Virus record (IMG/VR): IMGVR_UViG_3300037264_000296
Coordinates: 1-59,648 of that record
Strand: one strand, 5' to 3'
Length of the DNA stretch: 59,648 bases
From: a virus
Under the pieces are notes generated by a model. The model saw nothing but the letters and a program-made list of their open reading frames with translations, was not told the DNA's origin and did no database searches. Positions 18,401 through 39,486 of this stretch are shown here, in pieces. The position numbers were made by a program, and so were the translations under genes. Numbering within the stretch: position 1 is the first letter of the stretch; each line of letters starts with the position of its first letter.

Positions 18401-19446
18401 AACGTAAGTTATCTTTATCAGATTTCTTTAGACCTGCTGATGAACAAGAGTTAAGTACATTTGTTAAATACTTTGGTTCACAGCTATATCCATATATTAA
18501 GAAAGTTAATTTAGATAGAGGTACTCAAATATGGCAAGAAGGAATTGGTTATCTTAAAGATCAATTGGTTGTTAAATCTGGTACTGTATTAGGTGGTAAT
18601 GAAGTAAGTAATGCATGGATAGCTTACATGGAAGGCATGACACTTATACAGTACTTTAAAGCTAAGATTGAAGCACTTAGATTAGTTATTGGTTATCATA
18701 AATTACAATCTCAAATAAATGATATTGAGTATTTACTTAAATATGATAAAGAAATGAGTTCTACTATGAGAACTAACCTTGAAACCAAGTTAAGTAATAT
18801 TTCTAGTCTAGCTAATAATAGCTTAGTTAAAAAATATGACATTGCTGGTCAAATGAAAACTATTGTTGATGAGATTGGTGAAGATGAGAATTTGTGGAGT
18901 TTTAGAAATGAAGTCTTTGAGAATAGAATTAAATCTGTTACTGATAAACTACCTAAACCAATAAAAACTATTGGTAGAGAAGTATTTATGACACATGATA
19001 CAAAAATGTATCAGTTAATGAGAGACCTAACTCAGATGTCTGATTTAACGTCTAGGATTGCTGTAGGCGAGTTTAAACAGTCACATGGTATGACTGAGAA
19101 GGAAGCATTACAATTGGTTGATGAAGCGTTTATTAACTACGATATACCATCACATCAGAATGTACAATTTGCTGCTGATATGGGATTGTTTATGTTTAAT
19201 AAATTCTTCTTTAGGATTCAGTCAGTAATAGCTAGAGAAGTAGGACAACATCCTGCTAGATTCTTAACATTACTTGGTATGGAACAAGTGTTTGGAGCAC
19301 AAGAAGCAATCCATCATTCTCTTATGACTCCAGATGAGTTAATAGGACATGTTAGTAACCCATTGAAACTTCCTTATGCAATATGGGATTCTAACTTTTA
19401 CAACTGGTTATTTAGTTTTCATGCTCCTGTTTATCAACCTGTGTAG
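6448..19446 (+). CDS. Giant virion RNA polymerase (N4 gp50-like) with extra enzymatic-looking domains
   Basis: 4332 residues, against about 3500 in N4. This is a single-subunit T7-type RNA polymerase carried in the virion and injected to transcribe early genes. Motifs in order: T/DxxGR (MYQGR, G2029 R2030); motif A with catalytic Asp (REIDGITNG, D2159); motif B (R2287, K2291, then FG at 2299-2300 instead of YG); motif C (GIHDA, D2578). Residues ~200-560 hold Gly/Ala-rich segments (EEGLQSPAE, GGILGGG) typical of ejected proteins. Acidic Thr/Glu-rich linkers lie near 1050-1090 and 1310-1370. After the polymerase core come a DUF4326-like module (HFGNPF at 2813-2818, GEPSH at 2878-2882), a following small domain (DTIAF at 2967) and an HExxH metallopeptidase motif (HELVH, 3279-3283, with E3345 as possible third ligand). 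The ribosome binding site is AAGGA. The gene ends in tandem stops, TAG TAA. Confidence 0.93.
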   Translation: MPSLLSDNPLLSFNSLLPDDASNKANELLDKLNQKKVALGKQYVDYDNLEVVDGDTVHKKDTGEQFRLQFDKSGYSIDPYETNHGDIFTAKEDTQKKLARQRQYLLEQTNKDKWFDFTKANPEDITNEMIFAKGEEAKQRLNNALKGKKGIELNTWGEDIFHRGLTDIRLDGSQDSLLSEINTPELNTGYNQKYNSIQKLKDSLNKNAVMQDVGDIATNIASRTVGLTGLPAELIDMGSGAVTAIANKLGADLNEPLSYTKALADGVEIPFTDGFRVGFDPNRAAKTIKETLQSNEAVANEVEYAKRKADAIRTKGDELSFGEEFGLSMKFMGDHPKYAIDAVAESIPDFFLMGAAAKRVAGKVAETALKEAGLTITDVGAKDVLATAYKANKGRILGASALSEGIISAGSDYQGLIDEGVKSTKAALPSIAAGAAVSLINLGLGHSPLGDAITKFVTKDASNAAKETLKGALTKTLVSVGSESIEEGLQSPAETILTNVAREKANLLEGAGYSAAEGTVSGGILGGGMTASHTSLDALKSSLNARREAKQEELAKATANPMKDATDALNSYNSVDTPSPEMNDSLVKAATDLGIDIKDKPINEIHDEVTKATKYSSVEDYQAIKGMDSDTDLNEHITKVVGSKVSNDVQIDVLEQLQKKDPTSFETRKEELQPKLDKLYQQSTTKDDPNLIADNIHTSKLSPLATASIQAIDKEANKLTSKDPEVISKIEPTLLLEHTARIVNEAGKVDLKDTTTKEEYRNAVNVSLNGYWVVAASTGNITEEKAQEHLNRVQRTLANLESHIVNNTDMTNKEDINLLIKSNYGSVAPEELTPENKKSVPTEDLIKASKDTTDKIKAARATTTLKLRGVYSQLEDKLKKVPGIFNQVIKEVFEGTGDKPAIKEHQLLIMAAMDSDKLSSKAATKTALNDFGKWINYHSEKQIELTKVNQAIIKHGVDSQQAIDALVDLNTWAKSKNVVDIEGNAREYKISKKNGKLKFGNLTEQVTLEAKAMQIAFHALKDEASAKFGKEDLPDAMSHLLDTEVVTTPVVSEEDNSTVQTEEDLANRFNEEQPSNTTEPSNPNKNKDKFTPTHTLTNSKGTRTIVVQEIKDDYLNTVWRTEDGGNIHNIENWIGDGWVISKIKTETKSKEESIFSKLKKELAGLKAYILVDILSGLKTFKAIYRGERVSLLDLENEILRLRKKANKGELTKQDLINTYILWVTDTRIQMSISEESVKNNQQLYVDMLDEIVSSLKESDFASDTEVEIINVQEQISANESFGKQTNTAEEVELYVKTKEELKNKLASLKEKLTLETSTEEVTPTEEAKPVEDNSTVTEETTQSEQDTLQDESEIPPITDEEFQSMYDSYQEEIQDEESNVEPLTAKQLQSIFNNIIGLIKANKIATTNPIEMASKILTHLFKTDLSLSDVKDKMENYILPGINDKTIKDNTNKDYLFGLELGREEANNKFLEWQDKRLNELANAKTDTQEANPDVNPEFFKEKLNSKGGKFRLFFTIKGSKKYIPFIKVESPIKNVTNLVPLETVVDSKNKELPIKYYLFNKFVNTAGVGRLYSKALGLLKDSTKETVFTKYPDLFRNLENNVHIISQLKSIEGKVAIDTIAEFVEQFHNEYVKANTKISDTIDRKKFTSEVGKKFSKDIQAQLAVFNKDNSEVDLNVEALLKHFEGNSDVTRFINKFAKVLLNVESNPSLLLHNDDEVIDRNITAQLALHALSWMINTGTKTLYTEREMTLHMLGKEEATAPSDEAMAALSTMGLVRGYVANQMSGSIVNYMGFKPNDYIPKEMFPKFETALGLSAIDTLERMGYVEYKGIPQASMNAFMTGEDTVSRGYTSESSILKDATIFVRIKSDLAKNNEPILVKHVRELFDKVRPGNKEIQDIFSIELVETEYSATPWERSKLLQMLGERNGILTFGNSRTQYAKDDRKAALNGAKSAFDNRTAANDLANKLGDEFLKEINFEKKLDAEDHIGNIESNKGLLSSTMSMLDSWKELNSLGAVVYFYYKKMYQGRYQGVGSGHPQTNKLVRWTRSLWKGEVKKDYSDPVFKQFMQAVIEGFKKKPSQMTDAEIQDSFIEIYEKHIPVLNLINEDTLTEEEKDTIVQAIHAGGEKYHTMAVLAALSEYHSTIGDTFTTTLMREIDGITNGPLISLIMMSGVKQTFFEGKPVAVHIEELQAGGVSITGESYLDFVKNNPDTNDMYKIVARYINIYISELNETLPLIIREGKNRFLKDVRTPLQQRIAIMDAHPNRIEPQVWLNAVHNLVGIIDRGFAKNPTTVFIFGGSTIKIAANVASKVLFDINNKLLAISKIEDEVTQLDAVKELHANLFNSIGLPINLLTEYTKAPNKKTFLLNWQLTKPQKTILRNSVIATYTPVIDNAVKTVFARLLENRKLVNNVYQLTNKIFKHEFERKIDELVKQGITITAEDIDNILLELQPLMPDIAIFNAEDIKEQRLQLWKPESAKQGKADYKVQINSPKDSKPMTMMGLDEQGNVFESYIINEGTDNEIEIHVPQSASAYAKDMIIAAMSVRAPITSTHNADSHVIQQLLKLNQQVLGIHDASMMGLDRVEEVSRGMNEALFNLLANYNYFNEVYKHLERVKSYNKKNINSWFNGTVNRVNAKAEGLLSEVNEEARPVDITREIVGSWNTVWVRDPETRRNVQRIAYNSFDEFIAYFKDKSEELYKELQDNVITPIKQGGSFGNYSGQYPFVPVYTPTGSTEEQIVSIIESGLNQGNTNTKPEIKPSESNEIYSQLGNKTKSTNVVITSWSNLKGVTKAITPNGVVATRIYNSNEHFGNPFSHDPAGKTQGLIQTETIQEAVERYIDWVINSSDIRANWIRAQLQSGVLKGKPILYYKELGEPSHATALDYLINKYDWGNKPSEDTSTKVGFTLKGKPGIYASLLRKDQGKANIVNAYIGYGIKGSSTEAYLNDAQGNVPTNESINPTKDTIAFVSINGNKQLTPENKTKTLEQIKRVLNAGGVIVMDNSRIANSIHNKSGEGVIQQEIQSIPGIGMMEVNGNNQYKMINTSTQTNEDNNFVLTKDKIQKLKDFINKYINSSDTYKVSDLIDKVKLLNPEFKDLDILKYMYGSLLSTYYSDENQKKDFNVGNKTPDMFYQHKNYWESRKNYGLKLVKDNQSGKAKIISINNNPNLGSQESTTTNLFQNPLGNIDSTNVLDTAERLENLGNVRDEDTHTTHLKSILGGFISKVLQPLQYFEMTSPEANIGEYDPSGKIGLNISNAPIAPTVKVPMSALTTFVHELVHGVTASALFDPKNSILRSRVQKIFNHIERNISNEDKEKYSHIFANKNKTQLANGTFVNHGLAELIAFAETEPMFRELLNSLPKMTVGKITETWDESKEKFIEANLLEIISNVFNKIMVWWNDKIKGEHSTDVLTQLHTLTVQLSTAHLKAKSTIYDFKLLSDKSDNFVLNKLHRLLVEPLLKLLGNNYFTLNPNKNAAAMSNSARDLLNAPGSAKAKVDKLFEFTDIMKKNLNISEEHWLTYSLNEITGQIAVGNFTQALNMTKKLRDKVVAIIQNTISSNLRAGFKTNLTKQLDRVVYNTLLKTDLSSLQDYYKDDLLNMFDGSKRKVEQEKLKKEILNNKNGKLYLGHTYNTAFFMVHNQATKSFQHSTLMNATQIYNMYGSNFKPVGDKDSTVELIDKLIGLYTLDLVNQEELNTLKDLFNTDSHGLNMSMEVHRQQKEHHLNDILKGNKSLVVKGSTKELTNPNRQIIIATAAEEEKLKLNHYTKGNKIVYEGKELYVYHSKFRLMQPWVQGIISYTHMNNILSDMKGVMKQSDGLDQIIQDGKLDASAKIKTMKENEANANKTVFDTTEADYTLNPVFNGKGYVSKHSFMLSNQDKENLLDMNTNFTHVLGAMVANITDKLNTQRLNDESAKMLIKNRMDNLETKGIQWITLSKDAKTKNERDIWNKLTPEFKKTILDLSGSNEVVVNAKLLKMIFGQRKLSLSDFFRPADEQELSTFVKYFGSQLYPYIKKVNLDRGTQIWQEGIGYLKDQLVVKSGTVLGGNEVSNAWIAYMEGMTLIQYFKAKIEALRLVIGYHKLQSQINDIEYLLKYDKEMSSTMRTNLETKLSNISSLANNSLVKKYDIAGQMKTIVDEIGEDENLWSFRNEVFENRIKSVTDKLPKPIKTIGREVFMTHDTKMYQLMRDLTQMSDLTSRIAVGEFKQSHGMTEKEALQLVDEAFINYDIPSHQNVQFAADMGLFMFNKFFFRIQSVIAREVGQHPARFLTLLGMEQVFGAQEAIHHSLMTPDELIGHVSNPLKLPYAIWDSNFYNWLFSFHAPVYQPV

Positions 19447-19681
19447 TAATGTTATATTTTTCTTTAATAGCTAAAGCTATTCTAACTTGAGATTCTAATT
19501 TAAGGATTTTATCTAGGAAACGTCTTGCTAGATAATTCCCTTGCATTAATGAAGTACCATTAGGAGAAGCTAATAGTTTATTTAAATCATCTGCAAATTC
19601 ATGCATTAATGGTTTATAAACTTTAGCTTCTGTTGGTTCAACATCAAGTATTCTTAAAAATTCAGGTGAAAATATTTCCAT
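19412..19681 (-). CDS. Small protein of unknown function, convergent with the virion polymerase gene
   Basis: 89 residues, mostly helical and charged. No motif recognised. It is the last gene of the leftward (minus) operon. Its 3' end overlaps the 3' end of the virion polymerase gene by 35 bases on the opposite strand, and its start overlaps the stop of the RepA-like ATPase gene by one base (TAATG). A role with that ATPase is possible from the coupling only. Confidence 0.6.
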   Translation of the reverse strand: MEIFSPEFLRILDVEPTEAKVYKPLMHEFADDLNKLLASPNGTSLMQGNYLARRFLDKILKLESQVRIALAIKEKYNITTQVDKQEHEN

Positions 19682-20298
19682 TATATTATCTCCACTAAGG
19701 AATCTCTACTTAATCCAGCTCTTGACTTAACTATTTGTGCTGTTAAGTTACCTTTATCTCTATTAAAAATAAATCCACTATCACATTGTTCTTCCAATGC
19801 TCTAGCACCATAAAAGTGTTGTTCAGCAGATTTAAGCTGTTTATTTTTATACACATGATGAACTAATATAATAGTACATTGTGTTTTAGTAATGATAGCT
19901 TTTAAGCTATTTATAATGTTTAACACATCTGAATTACTATCAGTATCTTTATTCATAAATGATGCCATCATTTTGAATGAATCAATAATAATGATTGTAT
20001 TTGGTTCACTGTTTAACATTAGAGTGCTAAAAAATTCTTCATATTCATCTTCGTTTACAGGAACATTGTACATTTCTTTATCATAGCAAGGAGTTGAGTC
20101 AAAATTAAAATGAACTACTTCATATCCTTCACTTCTCCATTGTTCTGATTTAGCATGTAAAAATGAAGTTTTACCTGTACCTGCTAAAGATGCAATAACA
20201 TTAATACCTGCTTTTATAAACAGATTTTCTTTATCTAAACATGTTACAGGTTTCAAAACACACTTCCCATATTTGCTTTCTACTGGTGGAATTAACAT
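19681..20298 (-). CDS. RepA/KaiC-like P-loop ATPase
   Basis: 205 residues. The Walker A motif is near residue 40 (ASLAGTGKTSF) and the Walker B strand near residue 105 (NTIIIIDSF). A Lys/His-rich catalytic strand (TIILVHHVYKNK) and the segment SAEQHFYGARALEEQCD follow. This layout fits the RecA-fold AAA_25/RepA group, hexameric ATPases that act as replicative helicases or DNA translocases. The protein is short, with no extra DNA-binding domain, so it may work with the neighbouring replication genes. The start is supported by AAGGAAATTT just upstream. A terminator-like kissing-loop leader lies between its promoter and its start, so its expression may be attenuated. Confidence 0.75.
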   Translation of the reverse strand: MLIPPVESKYGKCVLKPVTCLDKENLFIKAGINVIASLAGTGKTSFLHAKSEQWRSEGYEVVHFNFDSTPCYDKEMYNVPVNEDEYEEFFSTLMLNSEPNTIIIIDSFKMMASFMNKDTDSNSDVLNIINSLKAIITKTQCTIILVHHVYKNKQLKSAEQHFYGARALEEQCDSGFIFNRDKGNLTAQIVKSRAGLSRDSLVEII

Positions 20299-20318
20299 AA
20301 ATTTCCTTAAGACATAAA

Positions 20319-20410
20319 AAACCTCTAAAATGAGAGTAGTGGTCTCAAATATAGAGGTTTAAAAGTTTTACCTTTTGAATTAAGTCCCCACTACAGGCAT
20401 ACTTCAAAAG
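20319..20410 (-). promoter_or_regulatory. Candidate kissing-loop attenuator in the leader of the ATPase operon
   Basis: Read on the minus strand, two stem-loops occur in order. SL1 has an 8-bp stem, CTTTTGAA/TTCAAAAG (20410-20403 with 20379-20372), and a 23-nt loop containing GTAGTGG (20394-20388). SL2 has a 9-bp base stem, AAACCTCTA/TAGAGGTTT, with an upper 5-bp stem TGAGA/TCTCA and a 7-nt loop that is exactly CCACTAC (20342-20336). Six T follow, ten bases before the AAGGA of the ATPase gene. The two loops are perfectly complementary over 7 nt. A third hairpin (AAAAG/CTTTT, between them) competes with the 3' arm of SL1. Seen directly: the pairings. Inferred: a switchable terminator. Confidence 0.55.
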
Positions 20411-20431
20411 ACATAAGGATTCTGATATTAG

Positions 20432-20466
20432 GTAGAATCCTTCCGAAGGATTCTACTATTTTTTTA
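20432..20466 (+). terminator. Rho-independent terminator for the late (plus) transcript
   Basis: A perfect 11-bp stem (GTAGAATCCTT, 20432-20442, with AAGGATTCTAC, 20446-20456) and a 3-nt loop are followed by a run of seven T. It lies 1 kb past the virion polymerase stop, so late transcripts would run antisense through the two leftward genes before stopping. Confidence 0.75.
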
Positions 20467-20478
20467 GTTGAAAGTCAA
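20450..20478 (-). promoter_or_regulatory. Sigma70-type promoter for the ATPase operon
   Basis: On the minus strand TTGACT (20478-20473) is separated by 17 bases from TAGAAT (20455-20450). This is a near-consensus host promoter. The -10 box is part of the stem of the plus-strand terminator and the -35 box abuts the T-run of the minus-strand terminator, so three signals share about 85 bases. The predicted start near 20443 gives a leader of about 145 nt. Confidence 0.6.
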
Positions 20479-20518
20479 TAAAAAAAACACCTATCAAATA
20501 TTACTCTGATAGGTGTTA
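20479..20518 (-). terminator. Rho-independent terminator of the middle/replication transcript
   Basis: On the minus strand an 11-bp perfect stem (AACACCTATCA with TGATAGGTGTT, plus-strand 20486-20496 and 20507-20517) is followed by about eight T. It ends the leftward transcript just after the 56-residue membrane protein gene. The ATPase operon therefore needs its own promoter. Confidence 0.85.
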
Positions 20519-39258: not shown

Positions 39259-39299
39259 GGTTCTCTCTTGTGAATAACATAGTTTCTTAGGCTATGGAT

Positions 39300-39341
39300 A
39301 AAAAAAAAAAAATCCCCTATAGAGTCAACTATAGAGGATTT
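39300..39341 (-). terminator. Strong terminator between the RNA modules and the vWA gene
   Basis: On the minus strand AAATCCTCTATAG pairs with CTATAGGGGATTT (13 bp, one G-T; plus-strand 39310-39322 and 39329-39341). The loop is 6 nt and at least eleven T follow. It is one of the best terminators in the window. It stops transcripts that include the two structured modules upstream and separates them from the vWA gene. Confidence 0.85.
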
Positions 39342-39355
39342 AGTATAAATTATAG

Positions 39356-39486
39356 TAAAAGACTATATTTTGTTCTTGTAAATGTATTTATTCGCGATTC
39401 AATACAAACTACTCACCATTAACTGAACCAGGTTATATTTTCATGGTTGATCAATTTCCACATAGTTTTATGGATATAGTCTTTTA
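39356..39486 (-). ncRNA. Candidate structured RNA module A
   Basis: A perfect 13-bp long-range stem (TAAAAGACTATAT, 39356-39368, with ATATAGTCTTTTA, 39474-39486) encloses 105 bases without a reading frame. Inside, on the minus strand, are AACCA/TGGTT (13-base loop), a hairpin GTATT/AATAC holding TCGCGA, an outer TTGTA/TACAA pairing, and CATA/TATG. This gives a multibranched fold. The terminator at 39300-39341 follows directly. I do not recognise it as any known RNA class. Confidence 0.5.

Follow-up and report, generated by a model that had tools for sequence, protein, structure and literature searches.

The locus raises the question of how a gene for a RecA-fold ATPase is controlled when it stands between two opposed transcription units, and whether the two complementary loops in its leader are meant to pair with each other. 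The DNA analysed, referred to as the window, is the whole 59,648-nt linear virus record IMGVR_UViG_3300037264_000296 (IMG/VR), positions 1 to 59,648. Its plus strand encodes a 4,332-residue protein matching the virion RNA polymerases of Schitoviridae (N4-like phages), and its minus strand carries a replication operon consisting of exonuclease, primase, Sak4, SSB and RusA genes. In relatives, this operon and the polymerase gene are arranged tail to tail with usually at most a terminator between them. In the window, a cassette of the ATPase gene and an 89-aa ORF (19412-20430) is inserted, bounded by the polymerase stop codon on one side and by the late terminator on the other. The kissing-loop leader stands 5' of this cassette.

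Alignment of the primase resulted in 80 relatives (45-52% identity), none of which had the ATPase or the 89-aa ORF; likewise, neither was encoded in any of the 85 other loci compared. The end of the virion RNA polymerase gene could be placed in 49 loci; the space before it usually contained no more than the last middle genes and, at most, a terminator. Single-sequence searches of IMG/VR with the ATPase, primase and SSB proteins gave no relatives, the ATPase had no tblastn match in phages, and no homologue of the window leader was found in the collections searched. The features of the locus, in window positions, are the following.

19412..19681, minus strand: 89-aa ORF of the same cassette as the ATPase gene, without any match
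19681..20298, minus strand: the putatively regulated gene, encoding a 205-aa AAA_25 / DnaB-like RecA-fold ATPase with remote RepA similarity; ATG at 20298
20304..20308, minus strand: Shine-Dalgarno-like AAGGA upstream of the ATPase ATG (from sequence)
20316..20321, minus strand: six-T run after the terminator hairpin (from sequence)
20319..20360, minus strand: terminator-shaped hairpin AAACCTCTA...TAGAGGTTT with inner TGAGA/TCTCA (from folding)
20336..20342, minus strand: kissing loop element Y, CCACTAC, the entire 7-nt apical loop of that hairpin (from folding)
20372..20410, minus strand: hairpin 1, an 8-bp CTTTTGAA/TTCAAAAG stem and a large loop in which a weak inner CC/GG stem presents T-GTAGTGG (from folding)
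20388..20394, minus strand: kissing loop element X, GTAGTGG, fitting the family form GTN[GA]NN[GC] (from sequence)
20415..20442, minus strand: 5' hairpin of the leader, AAGGATTCT...AGAATCCTT, whose arms repeat those of the late terminator (from folding)
20431..20457, plus strand: intrinsic terminator for the late (virion RNA polymerase) transcript, a 12-pair palindrome with T-run
20450..20478, minus strand: putative sigma-70 promoter of the leader, TTGACT-17-TAGAAT, a consensus match only
20486..20517, minus strand: intrinsic terminator of the middle (replication) operon, a 13-pair stem with T-run; several relatives also close the operon with a terminator

The promoter proposed at 20478-20450(-) in the earlier note is present and belongs to the best-scoring class (10/12) inside a non-coding stretch. 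Taken alone it is weak evidence, since promoter matches of that class were rarer in the region than in shuffles. The placement of the -10 box within the palindrome of the late terminator was confirmed, and the two opposed terminators, 20517-20486(-) and 20431-20457(+), are genuine consensus matches; terminator-like sites numbered 12 in 20 kb compared with 4.8 ± 2.3 in shuffles. Between 20415 and 20456 one arm occurs in three copies: AAGGATTCT at 20415-20423 is able to pair with 20434-20442. This pairing would rival the late terminator palindrome (20432-20456) on the plus strand, resembling an antiterminator for the late transcript.

The leader fold was better than all of the 200 shuffles (z -3.1). 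The centroid structure contained hairpin 1 with its 8-bp stem and the terminator with a loop of exactly CCACUAC. In the ensemble both GUAGUGG and CCACUAC stayed free of pairing, the final G of GUAGUGG excepted; the 7-bp duplex of the two amounted to -9.1 kcal/mol. Sequence and folding agree on the 8-bp hairpin with the GTAGTGG loop and on the terminator hairpin with the complementary 7-nt CCACTAC loop followed by six T. The third hairpin, AAAAG/CTTTT, which had been thought to compete with hairpin 1, fell away with a pair probability of about 0.002. Only one of the 12 terminator-like hairpins in the whole window, that of the leader, had a 7-nt complement of its loop just upstream. With loops of any sequence, Markov shuffles gave 0.12 such matches per window; a match with the family form GTN[GA]NN[GC] was obtained in 0 of 60 shuffles. 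GTAGTGG as a repeated operator was ruled out, the window having 3 sites with 3.0 expected. Two mini-ORFs, which may be due to chance, were also seen: ATGTCTTTTGAAGTATGCCTGTAG (MSFEVCL) at 20391-20414(-), with a stop overlapping GTAGTGG, and ATGTCTTAA at 20307-20315(-), directly after the T-run.

Because the leader had no close relative in the collections, the architecture was searched for instead of homologues. The pattern GTAGTGG, gap, CCACTAC, gap, T6 was present in 109 stretches of IMG/VR, many of them arranged as promoter, hairpin, linker and terminator, often with an ATG after the T-run. The scrambled-loop control GGATGTG/CACATCC resulted in 23 stretches, with the family layout in one of them only (L332). 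As the GTAGTGG/CCACTAC pattern fixes the loops, blind scans of IMG/VR were made in which neither the loop nor its partner was fixed. The Bacteroidota-type scan, with one hairpin-1 stem, the T-run and the ATG fixed, gave at least 119 raw matches. An exact downstream complement of the free 7-nt loop was present in 55 among the 119 matches listed, with 14 different loops; when the loops were dealt out anew among the 119 matches listed, exact partners numbered 5.6 on average and 13 at most. In the proteobacterial-type scan, where the stem and the terminator end were fixed, 83 of the 84 unique elements had the exact 7-nt partner, again with 14 loop sequences (mean 10.4, maximum 20 after reshuffling the loops among the elements). 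The 84th element, GTCGTGG/CTACGAC, pairs via one G-U. All four Watson-Crick pairs were found at loop position 3 of this group (42 AT, 33 CG, 7 TA, 2 GC). The two blind scans together gave a family of about 130 distinct elements with at least two promoter/host types.

A covariance model was seeded from a smaller alignment set, and a 60-sequence alignment was built with a model that excluded the window; its rows were fitted to the stems of the model, with the loop-loop pairing lying outside the model. In this alignment the loop-loop helix was paired in 98.5% of the cells, with both-side changes in 6 of its 7 pairs. The covariation score of the whole structure was 0.708, compared with 0.172 for shuffled and at most 0.115 for slid alignments. 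Changes on both sides were also seen at the same locus of two Flavobacterium phage groups, GTGAGAC/GTCTCAC in hattifnatt9-1 and GTGGAAC/GTTCCAC in mumin6-1. In FCL-2 the C-rich and G-rich sides are exchanged, CATCCAC being in hairpin 1 and GTGGATG in the terminator. The earlier note had taken a lack of compensatory changes in relatives as refuting the proposed contact; such changes were found, and the idea survived the test. The loop pairing is considered real because both loops change together in relatives; the contact between the leader hairpin and the terminator hairpin is strongly supported there, and as far as comparison goes the loop-loop helix of the family is established.

A relaxed descriptor resulted in 182 matches in the collected loci and 8 in shuffled sequence, which refers to specificity and not to abundance because many of the loci were collected for having the pattern. 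In 84,980 genomes the GTAGTGG/CCACTAC pattern mostly hit unrelated palindromic repeats (Thiotrichaceae, Coriobacteriales, Planctomycetes), the real-looking members being L298 and L302; a second copy in the genome of L298, L340, came from the model search. In about 590 genomes around two Bacteroidota-type matches, 4 genomes had a match at E<=0.01, which indicates that the element is mainly viral. The repeated GTAGTGG...CCACTAC palindromes of bacteria, L238, L244, L265 and L271 in Thiotrichaceae and L210, L254, L260 and others in Coriobacteriales, resemble repeat families unrelated to the leader.

The common layout starts with a promoter-proximal hairpin with a closing stem of 4-8 bp, in which the 7-nt loop X lies within an 8-nt loop N-X. 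About 40-50 nt further comes a terminator-shaped hairpin with the exact complement, Y, in the apical region, and then a T-run. Hairpin 1 comes almost directly after a promoter, whose type is TAnnTTTG in the Bacteroidota-type group and TTGACA/TATAAT in the proteobacterial-type group. The Bacteroidota-type terminator hairpin has an internal loop AGUA/GAA or a tandem G-A just below the kissing loop, and in most of the 53 elements with an ORF the ATG follows the beginning of the T-run by 9-12 nt. Proteobacterial-type elements lack an ORF or start codon directly at the T-run. The downstream proteins (n=47) contained NUMOD4 (24), HNH_3 (25), AP2 (7) and GIY-YIG (2) domains; others had primase, helicase, replisome-organiser or RepL (replication-initiator) domains.

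On several contigs two elements with unlike loop pairs occur together, such as GTCGTCG (with CGACGAC, in an endonuclease leader) and GTGAGAC in hattifnatt9-1, and the differing pairs on one contig may serve to avoid cross-talk. Two-element contigs were L464 (13317 and 14355), L370, L374, L407, L414, L435 and L437, with differing loop pairs in the cases seen. It is conceivable, and put forward tentatively, that the family represents a new mode of gene control, in which an intrinsic terminator or a hairpin at the start codon has to kiss, by its own apical loop, the hairpin next to the promoter. The freely diversifying loop would then be a private code against cross-talk between copies in one phage, and the module would move between phages of unrelated hosts together with selfish endonuclease and replication genes.

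Judged by the comparison of sequences, selection maintains the pairing of the two loops; the terminator shape of the second hairpin is retained, as is, in one group, its constant spacing from the start codon. The short inner stem presenting Y is itself kept, and therefore X/Y pairing and the terminator stem probably coexist. With such coexistence, the most likely effect of the kiss is a more stable hairpin and lower expression, through termination, blocked initiation or both. The reading regarded as probable is a cis-acting leader in which the kiss braces a terminator-like hairpin against the start codon and expression is kept low. The nascent RNA would form the kissing complex, and the terminator hairpin braced by it would be held against the start codon. 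Most transcripts would end at the T-run, and the read-through RNA would be poorly translated. Genes that are costly when over-expressed would be kept low in this manner: homing endonucleases, replication initiators and, in the window, the RecA-fold ATPase. Breakage of the contact by a phage or host factor would then allow expression. Control of termination by the kiss is regarded as plausible. In the proteobacterial-type group, control of the gene start cannot be the whole story because no start codon directly follows the T-run. The earlier note had suggested that the leader senses the late/early switch through the antisense late RNA. This found no support: both elements of hattifnatt9-1 stand among co-directional genes, antisense late transcription is therefore not general to the family, and late-transcript sensing was rejected as a general mechanism.

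The family could alternatively consist of stand-alone structured small RNAs that end at their own terminator, with the kiss shaping a trans-acting RNA and the downstream gene reached by chance read-through. Promoter, compact fold and terminator would make a complete short gene, and the proteobacterial-type elements are without an ORF at the T-run. In L145 (4999-5117) and L152 (6665-6784) such an element is directly followed by the sRNA-like Betaproteobacteria-1 RNA (Rfam RF02932), with which it may form one unit. However, in most Bacteroidota-type elements the start codon follows the beginning of the T-run by 9-12 nt, which points to cis control, and the small-RNA explanation is considered rather unlikely. 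A riboswitch-like sensor of a ligand or protein, with the kiss and the AGUA/GAA or tandem G-A motifs as a binding site deciding on terminator formation, is regarded as improbable. Conserved non-canonical internal loops do lie beside the kissing loop in many elements, and kissing loops organise the pockets of known riboswitches, but the loop sequence is free to change, the gene set suggests no ligand and the motifs are missing from the window.

The window leader shares with the family the order of the parts, the loop form GTN[GA]NN[GC], the exact X/Y pairing and the terminator with T-run. With the model built without the window, the leader was the best match in the window, 20413-20313(-), with 27.8 bits and E 0.0016, a match aided by the common letters GTAGTGG/CCACTAC. 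The internal loop of the window is UAUU/UUU and lacks both Bacteroidota-type motifs, due to which the leader was left out of that subgroup and is called divergent. The 8-nt loop T-GTAGTGG is closed only by the weak CC/GG inside the 8-bp outer stem. The ATG, preceded by the Shine-Dalgarno-like AAGGA, lies 23 nt beyond the beginning of the T-run (mostly 9-12 in the Bacteroidota-type group), and about 33 nt, including the extra 5' hairpin, separate the consensus promoter from hairpin 1. The X/Y covariation is that of the family, the window leader and the ATPase having no homologue in the collections searched. The leader probably belongs to the family, assigned to neither subgroup, and is likely a divergent member. 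That its 7-nt complementarity is a coincidence of an ordinary hairpin and an ordinary terminator, with the family real and this leader outside it, would agree with the missing motif, the weak loop closure, the lack of relatives and a chance of about 0.1 per window for any such loop match, but has a low probability given that the loop is of the family form (0/60 shuffles), that it is correctly placed among the parts from promoter to ATG, that this terminator is unique among the 12 of the window, and given the E value of the model match.

Intramolecular loop-loop contacts coupled to a terminator occur in the leader RNAs of purine and lysine riboswitches, whose ligands are known and in which the aptamer kiss and the expression platform are distinct parts. 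Unlike in these, the terminator hairpin of the family itself bears one of the loops, and the loop sequences diversify freely. Plasmid antisense RNAs of the ColE1 RNAI/RNAII type have fully paired 7-nt loops of diversified sequence on two separate RNAs, whereas the two loops of the family are in one leader. In T4-type phages (I-TevI, Aeh1 mobE), an RNA hairpin sequesters the ribosome binding site and limits homing endonuclease expression (PMC3014915). In the family, too, homing endonuclease genes of phages have a hairpin at their start codon, but the single helix over the ribosome binding site of long transcripts is replaced there by two hairpins with a co-varying loop-loop helix, a T-run after the second hairpin and the element's own promoter upstream. 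The HK022 putRNA, a nascent RNA of about 70 nt with two stem-loops near an early phage promoter, acts in cis and binds RNA polymerase, suppressing termination far downstream (PMC9378689). It resembles the family as a two-hairpin nascent RNA near a phage promoter; in contrast, the second hairpin of the family is terminator-shaped and the loops pair. A text search of PMC9378689 gave no mention of loop-loop or kissing pairing for put.

At gathering score, Rfam 15 had no match in the window, the chance matches of the leader being far below gathering, and none in 21 Bacteroidota-type loci. In 27 further loci only RF02932 and int-alpA were matched, adjacent to the element without overlap. RF02932 adjoins it in two loci but is a separate family that does not cover the kissing-loop element, and the int-alpA RNA (RF02996) of L471 (7448-7515) is about 350 nt downstream of it. 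No description of the family was found in the open literature searched, where most subscription papers fall outside. The expectation that the leader belongs to no described class was borne out in both searches, and the elements apparently form a widespread and undescribed family of phage leader RNAs. This family, which is large, well supported in its structure and absent from Rfam 15, is placed on homing endonuclease and replication genes. The cultured carriers, Flavobacterium phages hattifnatt9-1, mumin6-1 and FCL-2, make a loop-swap test directly feasible. If the kiss controls termination or translation, it would be an attenuator of new design, from which orthogonal RNA switches could be drawn.

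The leader model additionally gave weak matches on both strands of the window at 39273-39372 (about 20 bits, E 0.07-0.11).
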